DNA of 12,611 bases from an uncultured Bacilli bacterium (GTDB lineage: Bacteria > Bacillota_I > Bacilli_A > RF39 > UBA660), in NCBI GenBank assembly GCA_944331815.1, contig CALVIQ010000083.1:1-12611 (forward strand), written 5' to 3'. Both the position numbers and the translations under genes were made by a program. Below are positions 1-11,211 of the stretch, in pieces. The first letter of the stretch is position 1. Every line of letters begins with the position of its first letter. Under the pieces are notes generated by a model. That model searched no databases. It had not been told where the DNA came from and saw nothing but the letters and a program-made list of their open reading frames with translations.

Positions 1-530
1 CATTCGTTTTCACACATATAAAGACCAAGTATTTTTCCAGTAGCATCATCAATATAACCGTGAAGAGAGTATTTTTTACCAATGTTGAACCAATCAAATG
101 GAGTACCATCTGTTTGAACTAACAATCCTTCTGCTTCTTTTCTTTTTCTCCTTCTATGTGTTTTTTTACATTTATGAGCTTTTTTAGATGTAATATGATT
201 GTTATTTAAAATATTATATAAAGCAGAGTAAGAAATTTTAATATTTTCTCTTTCTTCTAATAAATCCCTAAAATGACTAAAATTAGTATTTGAATAGTCA
301 TCAGATAATTTTAATTGAATAATTTTTTCTTTTAACTCATTAGATAGAGTATGTACTGGTTTATAATTTTTATTTTTATGTTTTATTCCTTCTGGGCCTT
401 CGTCTTTAAATCTTTTAACAATTTTTCTAATTTGTCTATCTGATAGTTTTAATATCTTAGCTGCTTCTTTTTGAGTCCTTATTCCATCAATTACGGATTG
501 AATAATAGTAATTCTTTTTAATTCATTCAT
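1..530 (-). CDS. IS1202/ISNCY-type transposase, N-terminal part (runs off the window)
   Basis: Reading the minus strand leftward from 530 gives an uninterrupted frame of about 176 codons that continues past the window edge. The protein begins MNELKRITIIQSVIDG, followed by a helix-turn-helix (QKEAAKILKLSDRQIRKIVK, residues about 20-40) and a GPEGIKHKN segment. A basic stretch (HKCKKTHRRRKRK) leads into LVQTDGTPFDWF, where the Asp looks like the first catalytic Asp of a DDE/RNase H-fold domain, and IDDATGKILGLYM follows. This order matches the IS1202 group of ISNCY transposases as I know them. The start at 530 is preferred because GAAAGGA (540-546 on the plus strand) lies 9 bases upstream; the in-frame ATG at 539 would touch the ribosome site. 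The rest of the catalytic domain lies outside the window, so whether the element is intact is unknown. Confidence 0.82.
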   Translation of the reverse strand, partial: MNELKRITIIQSVIDGIRTQKEAAKILKLSDRQIRKIVKRFKDEGPEGIKHKNKNYKPVHTLSNELKEKIIQLKLSDDYSNTNFSHFRDLLEERENIKISYSALYNILNNNHITSKKAHKCKKTHRRRKRKEAEGLLVQTDGTPFDWFNIGKKYSLHGYIDDATGKILGLYMCENE

Positions 531-536
531 TGTAAA

Positions 537-565
537 CATTCCTTTCAAAATTTATCATTCCTTTC
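537..565 (-). repeat. 10-bp direct repeat duplicating the ribosome site and ATG of the transposase leader
   Basis: CATTCCTTTC occurs at 537-546 and again at 556-565 (on the minus strand GAAAGGAATG twice, period 19). Each copy carries a Shine-Dalgarno-like GAAAGGA fused to an ATG. Next to it, CTACA (568-572) and TGTAG (579-583) form a short hairpin in the leader RNA. Both could affect translation of the transposase, but this is inference. Confidence 0.5.
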
Positions 566-660
566 ATCTACATTTTGTTGTAGAATTTTAGGAATTATTC
601 ATAAATAAACTTATAATAGGAATTTATCACAAATTTAAGACAAATTGTTTACTATTGTCC

Positions 661-689
661 TTTACAATAATTAAAAAAAATATTATAAT
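661..689 (+). promoter_or_regulatory. Sigma-A promoter of the DGR operon
   Basis: TTTACA (661-666) is separated by exactly 17 bases from a consensus TATAAT (684-689). The first gene starts 30 bases downstream with a GAGGTG ribosome site (710-715). No other good promoter is visible between here and the template repeat, so one transcript probably covers the three genes and the TR. GACAAATTGTT lies just upstream at 639-649 and nearly repeats the palindrome core found before lepB. Confidence 0.7.
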
Positions 690-718
690 ATAGTTGCAGT
701 ACAATAGATGAGGTGTTG

Positions 719-1063
719 ATGAAAAATTATGTAGAAATAATTAAGATAGGAATTTTTTATAATGTTTTTAATGAAGATTGCCTAATTATTAATAGTTTGT
801 TTGATTATAAAATAATTAATAATCGCTGTGGTTTTCCACTTAAGAATATTGATGTTGTTGTAAACAAGCTTAAAGATAACCATATTAATTTTAAATATGA
901 AGATAAACATGTAAAGTATAAAGATAATAAATATCATAGTATGTTAAAAAAAATAAAAAATAAAAATGACATTGAAAGAAGAATAAATAGAATAACAGAA
1001 TGTTTATTTGATAATAATGAACTGATTTCTAAGGTTGAAGAAATATGCAAGATAAATTATTGA
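719..1063 (+). CDS. MutS domain I-like small protein associated with the DGR
   Basis: This gene encodes a 114-residue basic, Asn/Lys-rich protein with no signal peptide or membrane segment. Residues about 7-55 (IIKIGIFYNVFNEDCLIINSL, then CGFPLKNIDVVVNKL and INFKY) follow the pattern of the mismatch-recognition domain I of MutS (GDFYELF-DDA ... GVPYH ... L). The Phe of the MutS Phe-X-Glu motif is kept, but the Glu is Asn here. No other MutS domain is present. MutS-like small proteins are, as far as I recall, a recurrent accessory class in DGRs, where they may bind TR RNA/cDNA or mismatched heteroduplex; that role is inference. The ATG at 719 is preferred to the upstream GTG/TTG because GAGGTG ends 3 bases before it. 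Its end overlaps the next gene by 19 bases, which implies translational coupling. Confidence 0.6.
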   Translation: MKNYVEIIKIGIFYNVFNEDCLIINSLFDYKIINNRCGFPLKNIDVVVNKLKDNHINFKYEDKHVKYKDNKYHSMLKKIKNKNDIERRINRITECLFDNNELISKVEEICKINY

Positions 1064-1380
1064 TTGTGACCAATTTAAAAAAAACAATTATGTATATAGA
1101 AAAAACAGTTATAAATTATCCAAATAAATATAAAGTTTTAAAAGATAAAATAATTTCTTCTTTATATGATATTTTAGAACTTACTTATTATACTAATTGT
1201 TTAGAAGATAAGAAAAACAATCAATATTTAATAATAAGTAAAATTAAAATGTTAGATTTTTATTTTATGATTTCATTAAATAATAAATTAATAAATCAAA
1301 AAAAATATGTAAGTTATACAAACTATTTATTAGATATTACAAAATTAATATATGGTTGGATTAATGAAACGAACAAATAA
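1045..1380 (+). CDS. avd: Avd-like four-helix-bundle accessory protein of the DGR
   Basis: This gene encodes a 111-residue, almost wholly helical protein. The N-terminal helix (LLIVTNLKKTIMYIEKTVINYPNKYKVLKDKI), the central LYDILELTYYTNCL, the KIKMLDFYFMISLNNKLINQKKY helix pair and the closing LLDITKLIYGWINETNK match the Avd/23S-rRNA-IVP-type bundle, especially the (I/L)GGWI-like ending, here IYGWI. In characterised DGRs Avd is a basic pentamer that binds the RT and the TR RNA and is required for cDNA synthesis. This copy is divergent, so identification rests on length, helix pattern and position directly before the RT. The start is internal to the previous gene, with AAGG (1031-1034) upstream. 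Its last 17 bases overlap the RT start. Confidence 0.75.
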   Translation: MQDKLLIVTNLKKTIMYIEKTVINYPNKYKVLKDKIISSLYDILELTYYTNCLEDKKNNQYLIISKIKMLDFYFMISLNNKLINQKKYVSYTNYLLDITKLIYGWINETNK

Positions 1381-2425
1381 TTTATATTCTAAAATTTGTG
1401 ATATAGATAATATTATTTATATATATAATCAAATTAAAATTAATAATAAAGTAAGAAAAGAAAAATTTAATGATTTTTATTCAATGAATATAGTAGATAT
1501 ATATAATAAATTAAATAATAAAAATTATGTATTTGATAAATATAATATATTTACAATATATGAACCTAAAAGAAGAATAATTATGTCATTAAAAATTAAA
1601 GATAAAATTGTTAATCATTTAGTTGCTTATTATTTTTTAGATTTTGAAGAGAGCTACATTGATTCTAATGTTGCAGCAAGACTTAATAAAGGTTCAAGTT
1701 ATGGGATTAAATTAGTTAAAAAATATTTAAATCAAATTAAAAATAAAAATTTTTATATTTTAAAATTTGATATTAAAAAATATTTTTACAGTATTAATCA
1801 TGAAATATTAAAAAAATTAGTTTCAAAAAAAATTAAAGATAAAGATGCTCTAAATCTTATTTATCAAATAATTGGCAGTACTAATTATATTAATGATTAT
1901 GGTTATACTAAAGGAAAAGGAATACCTATTGGTAATATGACTAGTCAAGTATTTGGAATATTTTATTTAAATGATTTAGATCATTATATAAAAGAAGTAT
2001 TAAAAATTAAATATTATTGTCGTTATATGGATGATGGAGTTTTGATTCACGAAGATAAAAATTATTTGAAATATTGTTTATTAAAAATAAAAGAATTTTT
2101 AATAAAATATGATTTAGAACTTAATCATAAAACTAAAATATATTCTAAAAAAGAAGGAGTAACTTATTTAGGATTTAGATTTATTGTTTTAAATAATAAA
2201 GTAATTATTAAAGTAAAAAATTCTACAAAATTAAAATTTAAAAAAAGAATTAAGAAAATGTATAAACTTTACAAAACTAATAAAATTCCTTTTGAAAATT
2301 ATTTTCAAGTATTTAGTAGTTATAAAGGTCATCTAGAAAAAGGAAATTGTTACAATTTGATAATAAAAAATCAAAAATTTGAAACAATAAAAGGAGAGTG
2401 GGTAAGAGTAGAAGATTATTTATAG
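1364..2425 (+). CDS. DGR reverse transcriptase
   Basis: This gene encodes a 353-residue group-II-intron-related reverse transcriptase without maturase or endonuclease domains, the usual DGR size. Visible motifs are IYEPKRRIIMS (about 65-76), motif A KFDIKKYFYSI with catalytic Asp136, and the DGR-specific motif B IPIGNMTSQ (about 187-195) in place of the SQG-type motif of other RTs. Motif C is YMDD (221-224, bases 2024-2035), and LELNHKTKIY...TYLGFRF gives motifs D/E. All three catalytic Asp are present, so the enzyme looks active. It would copy the adjacent TR with adenine-specific infidelity. MKRTNNLYSKICDI is taken as the start because DGR RTs begin this way; an in-frame ATG at 1352 would add four residues. 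It overlaps avd by 17 bases, and its stop lies only about 15 bases before the TR. Confidence 0.92.
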   Translation: MKRTNNLYSKICDIDNIIYIYNQIKINNKVRKEKFNDFYSMNIVDIYNKLNNKNYVFDKYNIFTIYEPKRRIIMSLKIKDKIVNHLVAYYFLDFEESYIDSNVAARLNKGSSYGIKLVKKYLNQIKNKNFYILKFDIKKYFYSINHEILKKLVSKKIKDKDALNLIYQIIGSTNYINDYGYTKGKGIPIGNMTSQVFGIFYLNDLDHYIKEVLKIKYYCRYMDDGVLIHEDKNYLKYCLLKIKEFLIKYDLELNHKTKIYSKKEGVTYLGFRFIVLNNKVIIKVKNSTKLKFKKRIKKMYKLYKTNKIPFENYFQVFSSYKGHLEKGNCYNLIIKNQKFETIKGEWVRVEDYL

Positions 2426-2440
2426 GGATAATGCTGCAGT

Positions 2441-2563
2441 GTTGTGTCTAATCCTGATAACGCGTGGAATGTCAATGACAACGGCAACCTCAACAACGAC
2501 AATGTGGACAACTCTGACAACTATGGCGTTCGCCCAGCTTTCTATAAAACTAAGTATATATAG
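2441..2563 (+). ncRNA. DGR template repeat (TR), non-coding
   Basis: This stretch is about 47% G+C over 2441-2545, amid DNA roughly half as GC-rich. Its potential frame reads VVSNPDNAWNVNDNGNLN and NYGVRPAF, ending in YKTKYI and TAG, like the C-terminus of DGR-diversified ligand-binding domains. Between 2441 and 2545 there are 11 Asn codons (7 AAC, 4 AAT) and 5 Asp codons. Every one ends in C or T, so adenine randomisation cannot create a stop codon. No ribosome site or start codon precedes the frame, so it is a template rather than a gene. The GC-rich, A-poor 3' part (GGCGTTCGCCCAGCTTTC, 2525-2542) resembles an IMH-type segment that marks where mutagenic homing starts. The exact 5' edge is uncertain and may extend to about 2430. 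Confidence 0.85.
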
Positions 2564-2578
2564 AGTGATTTATAAATA

Positions 2579-2638
2579 AGAAGATATAGAAAACAAGCGT
2601 TATTCCTTGTTAGAAATAACTAAAAATAGAAGATATAG
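2579..2638 (+). repeat. Hairpin bracketed by 11-bp direct repeats downstream of the TR
   Basis: AACAAG (2592-2597) and CTTGTT (2606-2611) form a 6-bp stem with an 8-base loop. There is no T-run after it, so it is not a terminator. AGAAGATATAG occurs at 2579-2589 and again at 2628-2638, one copy on each side. In studied DGRs the RNA just 3' of the TR is needed to bind RT-Avd and prime cDNA synthesis, so this structure could belong to that functional spacer; that role is inference. Confidence 0.45.
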
Positions 2639-2746: not shown

Positions 2747-3919
2747 ATGAAAGAAATAAAAAATGGATTTACGCTAATAGAGTTATTAGCAGTAATAATT
2801 ATACTAGCTATTGTGGCTCTTATTGCAACCCCAATAATATTAAATGTGGTAGATGATGCTAAAAAAAGTGCCGGATTATCAGAATCAAATATGATATATA
2901 GTGGAATCAATAATTATTGTGCAACAGAAGATGTGAAAGCTCAATTGGATAAAGATTATGTAAGAATATGTACATCAAGTTTAGATGCAGAAAAAGTAAA
3001 AGAAATGGTAAATTTAGGTAATGCTAAAATAATAGAAATAGAGTATAGTACTAAATTAACATGGTTAAAAGTAGAAAGTAATGGACACATATATAGTTTA
3101 GAAGAAAATGCAATGGTAGAAGGAGATTTAAATAAGCCAGAATCAAAATATGCAGTAGGAGATTTATTAAAAGTTCAAGTAAGTGATAGTGAGACCCAAA
3201 ATATCTATGTACTAGAAGTAAATGGAGATGAAATAGTAGGAATATTAGATAGAAATTTACCGGGAGGAACAGTAGCTTGGATAAGTGTAGAAGATTATAA
3301 GACAGCTACAGGTAGTGATATGCAAACGGATTATGAAAATAATCCAGAACAATTGAATCAAAATTTATATACATATGGAGCTGTTACAGCAAATAAAACA
3401 TTAAATGAAAGAACAAGTAGTTGGAATAAAGTAACAAAGAAATATTTACCAGAAGCAGAAGACATATTAAAATTAACAGAATATTATAAAGAATTAGAAG
3501 CAAGTGGAGAAACATCAAATTGGGAAAGTAAATATTCTACAGATTTTAGTAATTTTATATTGGATAATATTGAAATAAATGATTGTATTTTTAGAAAAGA
3601 ATGTCAAGAGGCAATAATAGCAGCAGGTGGGGAAAAATATTTGTTTCCAGAATGGGTAACGATAAATTTAGCTACAAATGGAGATAATAGTGCAGGAGTT
3701 GGTTATTGGACAAATAAATTGGTAAATGTGAATGTTGCATCTAATATTGGAAATGTATGGAATGTACTTAATAGTGGAATTTTTTTTGTTACTTCGCTAG
3801 ATGATGATAGTGGTTTAGGTATACGTCCAGTTATTCATATTTCACAATCTAATGTTGTTTCTAAATTAGATTCACCAGAATATGTAAATCCGGATGAAAT
3901 AGGAAGTATTCCACATTAA
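2747..3919 (+). CDS. Prepilin-like surface protein with C-terminal DGR-target-type ligand-binding domain
   Basis: This gene encodes a 390-residue protein. The start MKEIKNGFTLIELLAVIIIL is a class III (type IV pilin/pseudopilin) signal: cleavage is expected after Gly7, giving mature Phe1 and the conserved Glu5, then a hydrophobic helix to about residue 32. The body contains VGDLLKVQV, YVLEVNGDEIVGILDRNL, LPEAEDILKLT and FPEWVTINLATNG. It ends with GYWTNKL...WNVLNSG...DDDSGLGIRPVIHIS, the closing pattern of C-type-lectin-like domains diversified by DGRs (also seen in DUF6273-type domains). Residues 330-363 align ungapped with the TR frame, keeping V-SN-N-WNV-G and G-RP. The start at 2747 is chosen for AGAGG 8 bases upstream; the longer frame from 2663 lacks a ribosome site and would bury the signal. 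A surface-displayed adhesin or receptor is likely; its ligand is unknown. No prepilin peptidase or pilus motor gene is in the window. Confidence 0.82.
   Translation: MKEIKNGFTLIELLAVIIILAIVALIATPIILNVVDDAKKSAGLSESNMIYSGINNYCATEDVKAQLDKDYVRICTSSLDAEKVKEMVNLGNAKIIEIEYSTKLTWLKVESNGHIYSLEENAMVEGDLNKPESKYAVGDLLKVQVSDSETQNIYVLEVNGDEIVGILDRNLPGGTVAWISVEDYKTATGSDMQTDYENNPEQLNQNLYTYGAVTANKTLNERTSSWNKVTKKYLPEAEDILKLTEYYKELEASGETSNWESKYSTDFSNFILDNIEINDCIFRKECQEAIIAAGGEKYLFPEWVTINLATNGDNSAGVGYWTNKLVNVNVASNIGNVWNVLNSGIFFVTSLDDDSGLGIRPVIHISQSNVVSKLDSPEYVNPDEIGSIPH
3734..3835 (+). repeat. Variable-repeat-like segment of the prepilin gene
   Basis: These 34 codons align without gaps to TR codons 2441-2542. 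TR Asn codons correspond to CTT, AGT, ATT, TTT, GTT, GAT and GGT, that is, random first and second bases with T third, as expected after adenine mutagenesis of AAT codons. Only about 47 of 102 bases are identical, and many differences are not at template adenines (for example GTC to GTA, CGC to CGT). The segment is therefore a homologue of a VR, not the VR of this TR. Confidence 0.6.
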
Positions 3920-3953
3920 CATAGAAAATTTACATTAAATTATCAATAAAAGT

Positions 3954-3998
3954 AAATCTAATAAATTATTAGGTAATAATTTATTAGATTTTTTATTT
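3954..3998 (+). terminator. Intrinsic terminator after the prepilin-like gene
   Basis: AAATCTAATAAATTATTA (3954-3971) and its exact reverse complement (3974-3991) form an 18-bp perfect inverted repeat around GG. The right arm runs into TTTTATTTG. The stem is almost all A-U, but its length makes up for that. It is nearly symmetrical, so it may also work from the other side. It insulates the division cluster from the accessory region. Confidence 0.75.
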
Positions 3999-4018
3999 GT
4001 CAAATTTACATAAATCTA

Positions 4019-4047
4019 TTTACAAAAATTAAGAAAAAGAGTAAAAT
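4019..4047 (+). promoter_or_regulatory. Promoter of the division/cell-wall cluster
   Basis: TTTACA (4019-4024) and TAAAAT (4042-4047) are separated by 17 bases. Transcription would start near 4054, inside the MraZ boxes, about 40 bases before mraZ. Confidence 0.65.
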
Positions 4048-4084
4048 GTTGGTATGAAGTGGTAATAGGTGTCAAAAAGTGGGT
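4045..4084 (+). promoter_or_regulatory. MraZ operator: four boxes with 10-bp period
   Basis: TTGG (4049-4052), GTGG (4059-4062), GTGT (4069-4072) and GTGG (4079-4082), each preceded by an A-rich triplet, repeat exactly every 10 bases, one helical turn. MraZ is known to bind tandem boxes of this type (TGGG-type in E. coli, AAAGTG[T/G] in mycoplasmas) upstream of its own gene. The boxes start at the -10 element, so bound MraZ would block initiation and autorepress the cluster. The last box also supplies the mraZ ribosome site. Confidence 0.7.
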
Positions 4085-4528: not shown

Positions 4529-5437
4529 ATGCATATAAGTGTTTTATTAGAAGAATGTATTAATAATTTAAATTTAAAAGAAGATAGTATAGTTGTAGAT
4601 TGTACTTTAGGCTATGCAGGACATAGTAGTGAGATATTGAAAAGAATAAAAAAGGGATATTTATATGCATTTGATCAAGATAAAGAAGCTATTAATAAGG
4701 CTAATTTAAAACTAGAAGGAATAGGGAACAACTATAAAATTATTAATAGTAATTTCGTTAATTTAAAAGAAGAATTAAATAGATTAAGCATTAATGAAGT
4801 TGATTCTATTTTATATGATTTAGGAGTATCTAGCCCACAATTAGATGAAAAAGAAAGAGGATTTAGTTTTCATCAAGATGCACGATTAGATATGAGAATG
4901 AATCAAGAACAAAAATTAGATGCTTATTATATTGTTAATAACTATGATTTAAATAAATTAGTTGATATATTCAAAAAATATGGTGAAGAAAAATATGCAT
5001 TATCAATTGCTAAAGGTATTATTAAAAATAGACCAATCACAACTACTTTAGAATTAGCTGAAGTAATTAAAGATAATGTACCATTTAGTTATAAAAAAGA
5101 AAAACATCCAGCAAGAAAGGTATTTCAAGCTATTAGGATTGAAGTTAATGATGAATTAAATGTCTTTGAAAAAAGTTTAAGGCAAGCATTAGATTTAATT
5201 AAAGTTGGTGGTAGAATCGAAGTTATAACTTTTCATTCACTAGAGGACAAAATATGTAAAAAAATATTTGATGAAGTAAGTAAGGTTGATAAAAATTTAA
5301 AAAATTTACCAATCATTCCTCTTGAATATCAACCTAAATATAAAATAGTTGGTAATATTGATCCAAGTAATGAAGAATTAATTAATAATAATAGAGCAAG
5401 AAGCGCTAAATTAAGGATAATTGAAAGGGTAAGATAG
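4529..5437 (+). CDS. rsmH: 16S rRNA (cytosine-1402-N4)-methyltransferase RsmH (MraW)
   Basis: This gene encodes a 302-residue cytosolic enzyme that uses S-adenosylmethionine to methylate N4 of C1402 in the ribosomal P site. The start HISVLLEECINNL and SAM-binding loop VVDCTLGYAGHSSEIL (about 22-38) are characteristic. So are YLYAFDQDKEAI, ILYDLGVSSPQLDEKERGFSF (about 94-114) and the inserted helical domain with HPARKVFQAIRIEVNDEL (about 192-209). GGRIEVITFHSLEDKICKKIF and the tail NNNRARSAKLRIIERVR complete it. Length and all motifs are normal. AAGGTGA (4519-4525), beginning on the mraZ stop codon, is the ribosome site. ftsL follows after 2 bases. Confidence 0.96.
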   Translation: MHISVLLEECINNLNLKEDSIVVDCTLGYAGHSSEILKRIKKGYLYAFDQDKEAINKANLKLEGIGNNYKIINSNFVNLKEELNRLSINEVDSILYDLGVSSPQLDEKERGFSFHQDARLDMRMNQEQKLDAYYIVNNYDLNKLVDIFKKYGEEKYALSIAKGIIKNRPITTTLELAEVIKDNVPFSYKKEKHPARKVFQAIRIEVNDELNVFEKSLRQALDLIKVGGRIEVITFHSLEDKICKKIFDEVSKVDKNLKNLPIIPLEYQPKYKIVGNIDPSNEELINNNRARSAKLRIIERVR

Positions 5438-5439
5438 CT

Positions 5440-5727
5440 ATGGCAAAAAAGAAAAAGGGTTTGACTAAAGGTGAAAAATTATTATATTTTTGTGGAATTT
5501 TATGTTTTGCATTAACCATTTTTATTAAAATTTTTTTTGGTGCAAGTATTGGAAACTATAAAATGAGCAATGAAAAAATTAAATATGAAATATCAACAGA
5601 AGAAAAAACTGTTGAAAGTCTTACAATGCAAGTAAATGAATTAACTTCATTTGATAATGTATCTAAAGTTGTCAAAGAATTAGGTTTAGCGTATAATAAT
5701 GATAATATAGTTGTTATAGGTGATTAA
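5440..5727 (+). CDS. ftsL: Cell division protein FtsL
   Basis: This gene encodes a 95-residue bitopic membrane protein with a short basic cytoplasmic N-terminus (MAKKKKGLTKGEK). One membrane helix covers about residues 14-35 (LLYFCGILCFALTIFIKIFFG), followed by an extracytoplasmic coiled coil (about 45-75, heptad-like leucine/valine spacing). FtsL pairs with DivIC/FtsB and activates the FtsW-PBP septal synthase. Sequence conservation in this family is poor; the call rests on size, topology and its place between rsmH and the division PBP. GAAAGGG (5423-5429) inside the end of rsmH is the ribosome site. Confidence 0.85.
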   Translation: MAKKKKGLTKGEKLLYFCGILCFALTIFIKIFFGASIGNYKMSNEKIKYEISTEEKTVESLTMQVNELTSFDNVSKVVKELGLAYNNDNIVVIGD

Positions 5728-5739
5728 GAGGTGAAAAAT

Positions 5740-7884
5740 ATGAAAACAAGAAGTATAAAATGGAAAACTCCAATGACGGTATTCTGTGTATTTCTTGTTT
5801 TTATTTTTGTATTATTTTTACAATATTTATATTTGTCATTATCACCAAATGTATATGGTATAAATATGCAAGAATTTGCTTCTAATCGTAATACATATTC
5901 TTCTACTTTACATGCTAAAAGAGGAACTATTTATGATTCCCAAGGAGATGTTTTAGCTACAGATGTATCTAGTTATACAGTAATTGCATATTTAGATGAA
6001 AGTAGAACTGGATCATCAACTACTTTATATCATGTTAAAGATAAAGAAGGAACGGCAAAAGCATTAGCTCCTTTATTAAATATGAAGGAAGAAACAATTT
6101 TAGAACTATTGAACAAAAAAGCTTATCAAGTTGAATTAGGTCCAGGTGGTAGAGGAATAACCGAAATATTAAAAAAGCAAATTGAAGATTTAAATTTACC
6201 AGGAATTGATTTTATTGAAAGTTATAAAAGATATTATCCAAATGGTGATTTTGCTTCTTATATTATTGGATATGCTAAAAAAAATGAAGTCGAAGTAATA
6301 GTTGATGATGTTACTAAAACTGAAGTTGTTATTCAAGGTGAATTAGGAATTGAAGTTGAGTATGATGAAATATTAAAAGGGATTAATGGTTATATTAGTT
6401 ATCAACAAGATAGATATGGTTATAAAATACCAGATACTCCTGAAGAAAATGTTCCTGCTGTTGATGGAAGTGATATTTATTTAACTATTGATGCTAATAT
6501 TCAAAGAATAATAGAAGCAGAAGTTAATAAAGTAGTTGAAGATTACAATCCTGAATGGTTAACAGTTAATGTTATGGATGCTAAAACAGGTGATATATTA
6601 GGATCTGTTTCTGAGCCTTCCTTCGATCCGAATAAATTAAATTTAACTAATTATGAAAATCCATTGACTTCTTTTGTTTACGAACCAGGTAGTGTTATGA
6701 AAATATTTACCTATATGTGTGCAATTGAAAAAGGTACTTATGTGGGTGATCAAACTTATCAATCCGGTGTTATTGATGTTGAAGGTACTAAAATATACGA
6801 TTGGAATAAAGTTGGTTGGGGAGAAATTACGTATGATCATGGATTTGAAATGTCTAGTAATGTTGGTACTGTTAATATAATGCAGAATTTTTTAACTAAG
6901 GATGATTTAAAAGATTGTCTAACTAGTTATGGATTTGGCAATACAACTGGTGTTGAATTACCTAGAGAATTATCTGGTAGTTTAGTATTTAATTATCCAG
7001 TTGAGGTTGCGGCTGCTTCATATGGTCAAGGTATCACAACCACACCAATTCAACAATTACAAGCTTTAAGTATTATTGCAAATGATGGTTATATGGTAAA
7101 ACCTAAAATTGTTAGTAAAATTTTAAATAATGGTGAACTAGTATATGAAAGAACAGTTGAAAAAAGTGATCGAATTGTAAGTCATAACACTGTTGAAAAA
7201 ATTAAAGAATTAATGTATAATGCAGTTAATAATGTAGAAGATGGAGCAATTGGAACTGCTTATATGATTGATGGATTAGATGTTATGGGTAAAACAGGAA
7301 CAGCTGAAATATATGATGAAGAACATGGCGGTTATTTAAATGGTTGGTTAGATAATTTGTATTCTTTTTCAGGAATTTTTCCTAAAGATGATCCTGAAAT
7401 AATAATATTTGTTTCTATGAAAAGGCCTAATAATGGTTCTAATATTGGATTAAAAACCATGACTCATGCTATTATGGAATCGATAGCTAAATATAAAGGT
7501 ATGATAAGTAATAAAGATGATGATGAAACAAAAAAAAGAATTGAAATAACAGATTATACAAATTTAAAAACTGAAGAAGTTGTTAAAAAATTAGAAGATC
7601 AAGGATTAGAAGTGGTATTATTAGGAAATGGTGATAGAATTATAAATCAATATCCTAATAAAACAACATTATTAACTGGAGAAAAAATTATTTTATTAAC
7701 AAATGACAACAATATTAAAATGCCATCATTAATTGGATATTCTAGAATTGATGCTATTTCGATTCTTGATTTATTAAAAATAGATTATGATATTGAAGGC
7801 TACGGATACGTTGTTGAACAAAGTATTAAAGCTGGAAGTAAATTATCTGATAAAATAAAATTAAAATTAAAACAAGATGAATAG
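5740..7884 (+). CDS. Class B penicillin-binding protein (division transpeptidase, PBP2B/PBP2X/FtsI type) with PASTA domains
   Basis: This gene encodes a 714-residue membrane-anchored D,D-transpeptidase for septal peptidoglycan. One N-terminal membrane helix (about 10-32) leads to a PBP dimer domain (LHAKRGTIYDSQGDVLATD, about 58-76), then the transpeptidase domain. Its catalytic motifs are S318-VMK (EPGSVMK), S372-SN and K518-TGTA. From about residue 600 two PASTA repeats follow (IEITDYTNLKTEEVVKKLED... and MPSLIGYSRIDAISILDLL...), the typical Gram-positive arrangement. Start 5740 is chosen because AGAGG (5727-5731) lies 8 bases upstream; the GTG at 5731 overlaps that site. It sits 12 bases after ftsL, in the place of pbpB/ftsI in dcw clusters. 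All active-site residues are present. Confidence 0.93.
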   Translation: MKTRSIKWKTPMTVFCVFLVFIFVLFLQYLYLSLSPNVYGINMQEFASNRNTYSSTLHAKRGTIYDSQGDVLATDVSSYTVIAYLDESRTGSSTTLYHVKDKEGTAKALAPLLNMKEETILELLNKKAYQVELGPGGRGITEILKKQIEDLNLPGIDFIESYKRYYPNGDFASYIIGYAKKNEVEVIVDDVTKTEVVIQGELGIEVEYDEILKGINGYISYQQDRYGYKIPDTPEENVPAVDGSDIYLTIDANIQRIIEAEVNKVVEDYNPEWLTVNVMDAKTGDILGSVSEPSFDPNKLNLTNYENPLTSFVYEPGSVMKIFTYMCAIEKGTYVGDQTYQSGVIDVEGTKIYDWNKVGWGEITYDHGFEMSSNVGTVNIMQNFLTKDDLKDCLTSYGFGNTTGVELPRELSGSLVFNYPVEVAAASYGQGITTTPIQQLQALSIIANDGYMVKPKIVSKILNNGELVYERTVEKSDRIVSHNTVEKIKELMYNAVNNVEDGAIGTAYMIDGLDVMGKTGTAEIYDEEHGGYLNGWLDNLYSFSGIFPKDDPEIIIFVSMKRPNNGSNIGLKTMTHAIMESIAKYKGMISNKDDDETKKRIEITDYTNLKTEEVVKKLEDQGLEVVLLGNGDRIINQYPNKTTLLTGEKIILLTNDNNIKMPSLIGYSRIDAISILDLLKIDYDIEGYGYVVEQSIKAGSKLSDKIKLKLKQDE

Positions 7885-8937: not shown

Positions 8938-11211
8938 ATGTTTGGACAATTTACAGAAGAAGCAAGAAAAATATTAGTTAATGCTAAGTCAGAGATGATG
9001 GAATTAAGACATCCTTATGTTGGAAGTGAACATCTTTTGTTAGCAATTTTAAAATCAAAAAATAATGTTTCTAAAAAATTAAAACAATATAATTTGGATT
9101 ATGATAAATTTAAAAATAAAATTATTGAAATTTTAGGCTTTGGTACTAAAGAGAGTGAATGGTTTTTATATACTCCGTTACTTAAAAGAATAATGGAAAA
9201 TGCTATGTTAGATTGTAAAGAAAAAAATAGTGAGGTTACCATTGAAGCTTTATTTTCTAGTTTGTTAGAAGAAGGTGAAGGTGTAGCAATTAGAATATTG
9301 TTAAATTTAAATATTGATTTAGATAAATTATATAACGAATTTAATTATAAAATATTTAAACCAAAAAAGAAAAAATTGTTATTAGAAGAATTAGGTACGG
9401 ATTTAACTAATAAAGCTAATGAATTAGATCCTGTAATTGGAAGAGAAGATGAAATAAAAAGAGTAATTGAAATTTTATCAAGAAGAACAAAAAACAATCC
9501 ATTATTGATTGGTGAAGCAGGCGTTGGAAAGACAGCTATTGTAGAGGAATTAAGTAGAAGAATTATAAATGGTGATGTACCTAATAATTTGAAAACTAAA
9601 AGAATAATTAGTTTAGATATGGCAACTTTAGTTGCTGGGACTAAGTATCGTGGGGAATTTGAAGAGAGAGTTCGTAAAATATTAAAAGAAGTAGAAGAAG
9701 ATAATGATATAATTTTATTTATTGATGAAATTCATACATTAGTTGGTGCAGGAGGTGCTGAAGGGGCAATTGATGCATCGAATATATTTAAACCTGCATT
9801 ATCAAGAAATAAATTAAGATGTATTGGAGCTACAACAATCAGTGAATACAAAAAATTTATTGAAAGTGATAAGGCTTTAGAAAGAAGATTTCAAAAAGTT
9901 AATATTGAAATACCTAATAAAGATGTTGTAAAACAAATATTATTAAAGTTAAAACCAATTTATGAAAATTATCATCATGTAATAATTAAAGATGAATTAT
10001 TAGATAAAATTATTGAATTATCAGATAAATATATATTTGATCGTAATCAACCTGATAAATCAATTGATATTTTAGATGAGGTGTGTGCAAAAAGTAGTTT
10101 AAAAGAAAGTAAAGAATTAATTGAATATAATAAATTAAATAAGCAATTACAAAATTTAATTAAAAACAAAAATGAGGCAGTTAGTAATTGTGATTTTAAA
10201 AAAGCAACAAGCTGTAAAGAAAAGGAATTTGTTTTAATGGATAAGATTAACAACTTAGAGCTTACATTATGTAATAAAACAAAAAATGAAGTTACCATTG
10301 ATGAAATTGCTAATGTTATCCATGCTAAAACCAAAATACCTGTTTATGAAATATTAAATAATAGTGATATAAAACAACTTGAACATGAATTAAATACCAT
10401 AATTGGTCAAGATAAGGCTATAAAAGAACTAAGTAATATTGCAAAGAAAATAAAACTAGGATTTAAAGATGATAGATGTTATTCATTTTTATTTGCTGGA
10501 CCTTCTGGAGTAGGTAAAACTGAACTTGCAAAAATATTTGGTAAATCTTTAGTTGGAGATAATGTAATAAGATTAGATATGAGTGAATTTAGTGAGTCTC
10601 ATAGTGTTAGTAAGTTTGTTGGAGCTCCTCCTGGATATATTGGATATAGTGATAATAAAACTATATTAGAAGAAATAAGAAATAAACCATTTTCTGTTTT
10701 GATATTAGATGAAATTGAAAGAGCTAATCAAACTATTATTAATTTATTATTTCAGATATTGGATAATGGTAAAATAAAAGATTCAAAAGGTGTAGATGTT
10801 TATTTTAATAATGTAATTATTATAATGACTTCTAATATTGGATTTGATGAAATAAATGTTGGATTTAATAAAAATAATGATGATTTAACAAAATTGAAAG
10901 AATATTTTAGCATTCTATTTATTAATCGTATTGATAATATTGTTTCATTTAATAGATTGAATGAAAAAAATATTAAAGAAATAATTAATAATAAAATAAA
11001 TAAATTAATTTTAAAATATAAAAATATTAAAATTAAGATAGATGAAAATGTTATAAATGATATTATAAAATTAAGTAATTATAATGAATTTGGAGCTAGA
11101 AAAATAGATAAAATCATTAAAGATAAATTAGAAAATACTATTATTGATAAAATTATTGATAATAAAAAAAGTGTTCATATTAAATCTCTTGAATTAAATA
11201 TATATACTTAA
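8938..11211 (+). CDS. clpC: AAA+ unfoldase ClpC (ClpP partner)
   Basis: This gene encodes a 757-residue HSP100 ATPase that unfolds proteins for ClpP. The N-terminal Clp-N double repeat (MFGQFTEEARKIL..., about 1-145) is followed by the first AAA+ domain with Walker A GEAGVGKT (192-199) and Walker B ILFIDEIHTLVGAGGAEGAID. A UVR-like middle domain follows (NEAVSNCDFKKATSCKEKEF). The second AAA+ domain has GPSGVGKT (521-528), GAPPGYIGY, VLILDEIER, NRIDNIVSF and a C-terminal domain. VGF in INVGFNKN fits the ClpP-docking loop that separates ClpC from ClpB. It is about 50 residues shorter than B. subtilis ClpC, mainly in loops and tail. GGGAGGA (8925-8931) precedes the ATG by 6 bases. No CtsR heptad repeat (GGTCAAA type) is visible upstream, and mcsA/mcsB/ctsR are absent, so regulation differs from the B. 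subtilis operon. Confidence 0.94.
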   Translation: MFGQFTEEARKILVNAKSEMMELRHPYVGSEHLLLAILKSKNNVSKKLKQYNLDYDKFKNKIIEILGFGTKESEWFLYTPLLKRIMENAMLDCKEKNSEVTIEALFSSLLEEGEGVAIRILLNLNIDLDKLYNEFNYKIFKPKKKKLLLEELGTDLTNKANELDPVIGREDEIKRVIEILSRRTKNNPLLIGEAGVGKTAIVEELSRRIINGDVPNNLKTKRIISLDMATLVAGTKYRGEFEERVRKILKEVEEDNDIILFIDEIHTLVGAGGAEGAIDASNIFKPALSRNKLRCIGATTISEYKKFIESDKALERRFQKVNIEIPNKDVVKQILLKLKPIYENYHHVIIKDELLDKIIELSDKYIFDRNQPDKSIDILDEVCAKSSLKESKELIEYNKLNKQLQNLIKNKNEAVSNCDFKKATSCKEKEFVLMDKINNLELTLCNKTKNEVTIDEIANVIHAKTKIPVYEILNNSDIKQLEHELNTIIGQDKAIKELSNIAKKIKLGFKDDRCYSFLFAGPSGVGKTELAKIFGKSLVGDNVIRLDMSEFSESHSVSKFVGAPPGYIGYSDNKTILEEIRNKPFSVLILDEIERANQTIINLLFQILDNGKIKDSKGVDVYFNNVIIIMTSNIGFDEINVGFNKNNDDLTKLKEYFSILFINRIDNIVSFNRLNEKNIKEIINNKINKLILKYKNIKIKIDENVINDIIKLSNYNEFGARKIDKIIKDKLENTIIDKIIDNKKSVHIKSLELNIYT

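Follow-up and report, generated by a model that had tools for sequence, protein, structure and literature searches.

The window analysed here, an entire contig (12,611 bases) of an uncultured member of the Bacilli, carries a diversity-generating retroelement (DGR). It is very probably a bacterial DGR with Avd and a lone MutS domain I protein (MSL) that rewrites variable repeats (VRs) in dispersed prepilin genes, the prepilin gene beside it being a recombinant of an N-terminal and a C-terminal module (N- and C-module) and not a current target. The parts of the cassette are in place, the differences between template repeat (TR) and VR in relatives are specific to adenines, and genomes of its kin each hold several dispersed prepilin targets. 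For comparison, the analysis drew on G001, the nearest genome, and on the genus to which it belongs. The features of the element and of the adjoining gene are as follows.

719..1063, + strand: MSL, a lone MutS domain I protein; a GTG start at 713 is also possible
1045..1380, + strand: Avd, by the bAvd, NF033474 and phrog_3206 profiles
1364..2425, + strand: DGR reverse transcriptase (RT) with IGNMTSQ and YMDD, by profiles, tree and motif; alternative start at 1352
2437..2546, + strand: TR, which reads SVVSNPDNAWNVNDNGNLNNDNVDNSDNYGVRPA in frame from 2438, by adenine-specific partners in kin and the derivability of protein P0004
2537..2674, + strand: spacer-like structured noncoding RNA, 3' to the TR; as drawn, it overlaps the final 10 TR bases
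2750..3160, + strand: N-module of the adjacent prepilin, with an N_methyl profile match and close identity to P0004
3155..3275, + strand: conserved seam in the prepilin, at which homologues have their N- and C-modules recombined
3161..3919, + strand: C-module of the adjacent prepilin, lectin-like by predicted fold
3731..3832, + strand: VR-equivalent of the adjacent prepilin, not TR-derived

The cassette and its reverse transcriptase

The initial annotation had described a complete compact DGR with three overlapping protein genes on one strand, and this description is borne out: MSL, Avd and RT are all open, and they are joined by the TR, the structured RNA and adenine-only TR/VR differences in relatives. 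The RT matches the profiles RVT_1 (2.9e-20) and phrog_1423 (3.9e-88), and the IGNMTSQ and YMDD motifs attributed to it are present. Its placement was examined in a tree of 25 rows, in which the window, its kin, 13 family members and five DGR references (BPP-1 Brt, BalMu-1, VP58.5, Lelie and Prosthecochloris) were set against four ltrA proteins and one Cas1-fused RT. At 100/99 the tree separates the 20 DGR-side rows from the other five, with a program warning of long branches that include the Cas1-fused row, and the window RT thus groups with BPP-1 Brt, away from group II and CRISPR RTs. All 20 DGR-side sequences carry [IL]GxxxSQ and all five others QGxxxSP; a regular expression for the YxDD box matched 17 of the 20. 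The closest solved structure is 8ub7, titled 'Reverse transcriptase' (E 5.4e-28), which we take to be the BPP-1 RT, with a group II RT behind at 1.7e-15. That the enzyme belongs to another class, such as the RTs of group II introns, of retrons or of defence systems, is suggested by the NCBIfam RT matches listed (group_II_RT_mat, Drt3a and Drt5), which score far below their cut-offs in every case; the tree, the motif, Avd and the TR/VR pairs contradict it, and we give it practically no weight.

This RT group is very common. A match at E <= 1e-30 was found in 83 of the 193 genomes of the family of G001, at E <= 1e-60 there are at least 1,380 matching proteins, and matches occur in 123 phage and 162 plasmid records, every one below 60% identity.

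Profile searches also agree with the annotation of the two accessory genes, with Pfam and NCBIfam scores under the curated cut-offs. Avd matches bAvd at 3.8e-8, NF033474 at 1.8e-11 (both below those cut-offs) and phrog_3206 at 1.6e-10. MSL matches MutS_I at E 0.0034, under the Pfam cut-off; 16 of its 18 aligned relatives match the same profile (best 3.5e-6), and the domain I fold and a GxFY motif are present.

Partners of the template repeat and the RNA beside it

The TR begins 12 nucleotides past the RT stop. Searching the 12,611-nt window for TR partners revealed no VR; an adenine-biased match, which the initial annotation called for within the same genome, was found in a congeneric genome, G047. 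On both points named by that annotation as possible refutations, the RT phylogeny and the TR match, the outcome favours a DGR. Over 103 columns, 17 of 30 adenines of the window TR are changed in the G047 VR and one of 73 other bases (p 1.6e-10); across all 110 columns the counts are 17/32 and 3/78. The final seven columns were excluded from the shorter comparison, as the TR and VR ends differ there. In the nearest kin, the uncultured Bacilli metagenome-assembled genome G001 (locus L021), which carries an equivalent cassette (amino acid identity 93.8% for RT, 95.5% for Avd and 88.6% for MSL), the TR differs from its own adjacent VR at 19 of 29 adenines and two of 74 other bases in the first 103 of 110 columns (p 1.3e-11). 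A VR of G208 differs from the window TR at 16 of 30 adenines and four of 73 other bases. The G047 and G208 VRs fit the window TR better than the kin TR, with one and four changes at other bases as against 12 and 15. Three observations on these two incomplete genomes weigh against this: the search of G047 (89% complete) gave no RT match, the sole RT match of G208 is 57% identical and has two stops, and in G047 the prepilin is broken into two open reading frames (ORFs).

With the TR confined to 1.5 kb around the RT, adenine-specific TR/VR pairs were recognized by reading in 12 of the 21 RT loci scanned, the window being among the remaining nine. Repeats in L081 (+), L085 (-), L097 (-) and part of L097 (+) were judged not to be DGR pairs and were set aside. 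The VR that fits the window TR best lies at L135 (G047:C23) 5352-6554, in the genome where no RT match was found, so that either the target is an orphan or the assembly has a gap. At L040 (about 5731-5840), L127 (about 9575-9684) and L130 (about 201-298), small length changes break the frame of TR-derived VRs, so that the prepilins are truncated. The VRs of the prepilin at L021 2857-4020 and of protein P0024 are near-identical and one residue apart (H vs N) at a TR adenine codon, a difference to be expected either from a recent adenine event or from an ordinary point mutation.

The stretch 3' of the TR is strongly conserved. The 138 nucleotides at 2537-2674 are identical in the window, L021 and L127, while the RT DNA of window and L021 differs by 5.6%, and several more distant family members retain a hairpin, a box resembling ACAAG..TTATTCC and further hairpins. 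For the outer helix (P1), pairing within a sequence averages 7.2 pairs in nine sequences, compared to 5.1 between sequences, and none of 3,000 permutations was as good. These nine were taken from 13: L021 and L127 are identical there, no box was seen in L094 and L093, and the L041 box was placed by hand. No Rfam family matched at gathering scores. In BPP-1, according to the part of PMC12875486 that describes it, a spacer next to the TR takes on a folded structure, brings in RT-Avd and serves to prime cDNA synthesis; by analogy, the window RNA may share this role. The element, originally bounded at 661..2611, holds in its parts and was ended too early, since the conserved RNA reaches at least 2674.

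Prepilin targets and the probably recombinant neighbour

In this genus the DGRs target type IV-like prepilins that are dispersed and end in a C-type-lectin-like part. VR-bearing prepilins number three in G001 and five in G207, the N-terminal methylation and cleavage motif occurs in all 57 aligned prepilin homologues (GFTLIE in the window prepilin), and T2SSF and a prepilin peptidase were found in 18 of 18 genus genomes. The homologue set comprised the best 120 of 127 proteins meeting the E-value; 48 of the 120, which have no RPV anchor, were dropped from the derivability count. None of the 371 residues at AAY codons is K, E, Q, M or W, a count that is partly circular because the VRs used were already at least 90% derivable. 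The C-module is predicted to have a lectin-like fold: a second structure aligner lists lectins for the pilin model, while Foldseek returned one match at E <= 0.001 (an IgA peptidase) and no lectin in its top 50 rows.

A second DGR in the kin genome, L041 (G001:C20) 13335-17640, has its TR at 15542-15601 and a VR at 14615-14674 inside a prepilin of 702 amino acids. It also has MSL, an Avd in two pieces and an RT with one stop, and looks damaged; related RTs are open in G205 and G207.

The prepilin adjacent to the window DGR (2750-3919) is not a present target of its TR. Its VR-equivalent shares TR length and register, and only 35 of 73 non-adenine bases agree, 21 of 33 residues are derivable and eight of 15 fixed codons are kept. 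In P0004, which likely comes from the same species, the N-module is 99% identical to that of the adjacent prepilin, all 33 VR residues are derivable from the window TR and all 15 fixed codons are kept. In P0006 the C-module is 100% identical to that of the adjacent prepilin and the N-module is different (27%). Sharing one module with each, the adjacent prepilin is an N/C recombinant, whether a real one or a chimera made in assembly. In 2,701 pairs drawn from 76 homologues that have the seam, this combination of C-module identity of at least 90% and N-module identity of at most 50% occurs in one pair only, the adjacent prepilin and P0006; 25 pairs have N-modules at least 95% and C-modules at most 80% identical (15 of the 25 without the four truncated-VR proteins). 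From this pattern, pilin stems and lectin modules look reshuffled, although misjoins could mimic reshuffling, in the window as elsewhere, because these are metagenome assemblies with conserved seams.

The contig might be chimeric, the assembler having fused the DGR and N-module of one prepilin locus, at the seam, with a C-module and mraZ flank that belong to a second locus. The non-target neighbour would then be an artefact and the true neighbour P0004-like, while the DGR itself would stand. We consider this unlikely, though it deserves serious attention: both candidate parents exist as proteins, P0004 and P0006, and the seam is conserved at the DNA level. The unit of DGR and prepilin, which precedes mraZ in the window, sits before fmt-ruvAB-queA in the kin, where mraZ is preceded by a different prepilin of 906 amino acids; this, too, speaks for a chimera. 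In G207 it lies beside RNase J- and FtsY-like genes (gene names here are by reading), and this third neighbourhood argues that the unit may really move; similar N/C reshuffling in many homologue pairs also speaks for a real recombinant, though those too come from metagenome assemblies. The neighbourhoods as such fit either origin. Alternatively, the C-module could be a VR that has been retired and has drifted in place ever since overwriting ceased, which would account for the TR length and register and the retained fixed codons. A pyrimidine ends the codon in 14 of 16 variable positions, and comparable AT-rich modules occur in L133 and L136. When corrected for amino acid, the pyrimidine test is not significant (p 0.12; L136 0.12, L133 0.69), and third-base pyrimidines were rejected as a trace of former AAY codons; moreover, the identity of the whole C-module to that of P0006, on another N-module, points to at least one swap. 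Drift without a swap is hence rather improbable as the whole explanation, and retirement and swap may both have contributed to the adjacent C-module.

In six of 17 loci (one too short to tell), namely window 2750-4058, L047, L174, L176, L180 and L181, mraZ has a prepilin ORF at most 1 kb upstream, and this ORF differs each time. We read this site as a variable pilin slot.

From left to right, the window holds an insertion-sequence-like (IS-like) repeat, a promoter-like site, MSL, Avd, RT, TR, the conserved noncoding stretch, the prepilin and cell-division genes starting with mraZ and rsmH (named from reading of the ORFs). The two leftmost features are:

1..644, - strand: IS-like repeat with a transposase-like ORF at 3-548, by helix-turn-helix profiles; a neighbour of the DGR, outside it
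661..689, + strand: promoter-like TTTACA-17-TATAAT, 11 of 12 consensus bases

Copies of the IS-like repeat are present in nine of 18 genus genomes; 21 of the 26 matches listed stop at window 642-649 and five extend to 678-691 at 83-89%. Its inner end lies about 17 nucleotides before the -35-like box of the DGR, and this multicopy repeat may influence DGR expression. The promoter of the initial annotation is present as a site, the top scorer of 31 in the window, and is suggestive only, because shuffled sequences have such sites at least as often, 35.8 on average.

Proposed mechanism, activity and related systems

In the mechanism we propose, the structured RNA lying immediately 3' of the TR would recruit RT and Avd, and these would make a cDNA of the TR in which errors fall at adenines. 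By retrohoming, the cDNA would replace the VR, about 100 nucleotides long and close to the gene end, in homologous prepilin genes at scattered sites of the genome, and the binding face of the C-type-lectin-like module, presumably displayed on type IV-like pili, would be rewritten. MSL, a lone mismatch-binding domain of MutS, may bind the duplex of cDNA and VR at its mismatches, or protect it.

Judged from sequence, activity of the DGR in this strain is plausible. The earlier statement that it is probably active gains from the intact parts and from P0004, and loses from the lack of a VR in the window, where the sole adjacent prepilin is not TR-derived. An element that is intact yet dormant in this lineage would fit the lack of a live target within the window, as well as the second DGRs of the kin with broken RTs (one stop in G001:C20, two in G208:C14) and the frame-broken VRs. 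Three open genes, an RNA unchanged over 138 nucleotides despite the divergence of the RT DNA from the kin, and the full fit of P0004 to the window TR make dormancy improbable. More tentatively, and with doubts of our own, we propose two layers of pilin diversification: a DGR with its own mismatch-binding protein would rewrite lectin loops in numerous dispersed prepilin genes, and recombination at the seam would swap lectin modules, including non-templated ones, between stems, moving loci in and out of DGR reach and the unit between pilin slots.

Like the BPP-1 DGR (mtd, TR, brt; AY029185.2), the window element has a DGR-clade RT with IGxxxSQ/YMDD, adenine-specific TR/VR differences, an RNA beside the TR and a lectin-like target. 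Unlike that phage element, it is cellular and has MSL, its TR and RNA follow the RT gene instead of lying between avd and brt, its kin have several dispersed prepilin targets, and the RTs are about 29% identical.

Antigenic variation of Neisseria pilin proceeds by recombination among pilin gene copies; in the window's group, by contrast, the donors would be whole genes and a DGR would act in addition. In the portions of the literature available to us, genes targeted at a distance are described for Treponema denticola (PMC4891356), as are leftover targets, whether next to a core DGR or lacking one; the window's group shares these and differs in its prepilin targets and N/C reshuffling. Bacteroides DGRs are cited in a passage of PMC12632263 as diversifying type V tip pilins. 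There too the presumed binding domain of a pilin is diversified, in lipoprotein pilins rather than in type IV-like prepilins with a GFTLIE motif. DUF1566 targets linked to putative pilin structures (PMC6642488) likewise combine a lectin-fold DUF1566/Lcl_C-type domain with pilin-like parts, and the passage concerned does not mention module swapping. Remote and leftover targets, DUF1566 pilin-like links and type V tip pilin diversification are, from these excerpts, already in print; a literature search of mainly open-access papers found no DGR acting on type IV-like prepilins with module swapping.

These findings tie a common DGR class of small-genome Bacilli to type IV-like pili, and caution that a gene adjoining a DGR is not necessarily its target. 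The TR-adjacent RNA offers a helix open to mutational testing, and the role of the MutS-domain-I accessory in retrohoming can be assayed. If module swapping is true, targeted mutation and recombination would jointly shape one surface repertoire.
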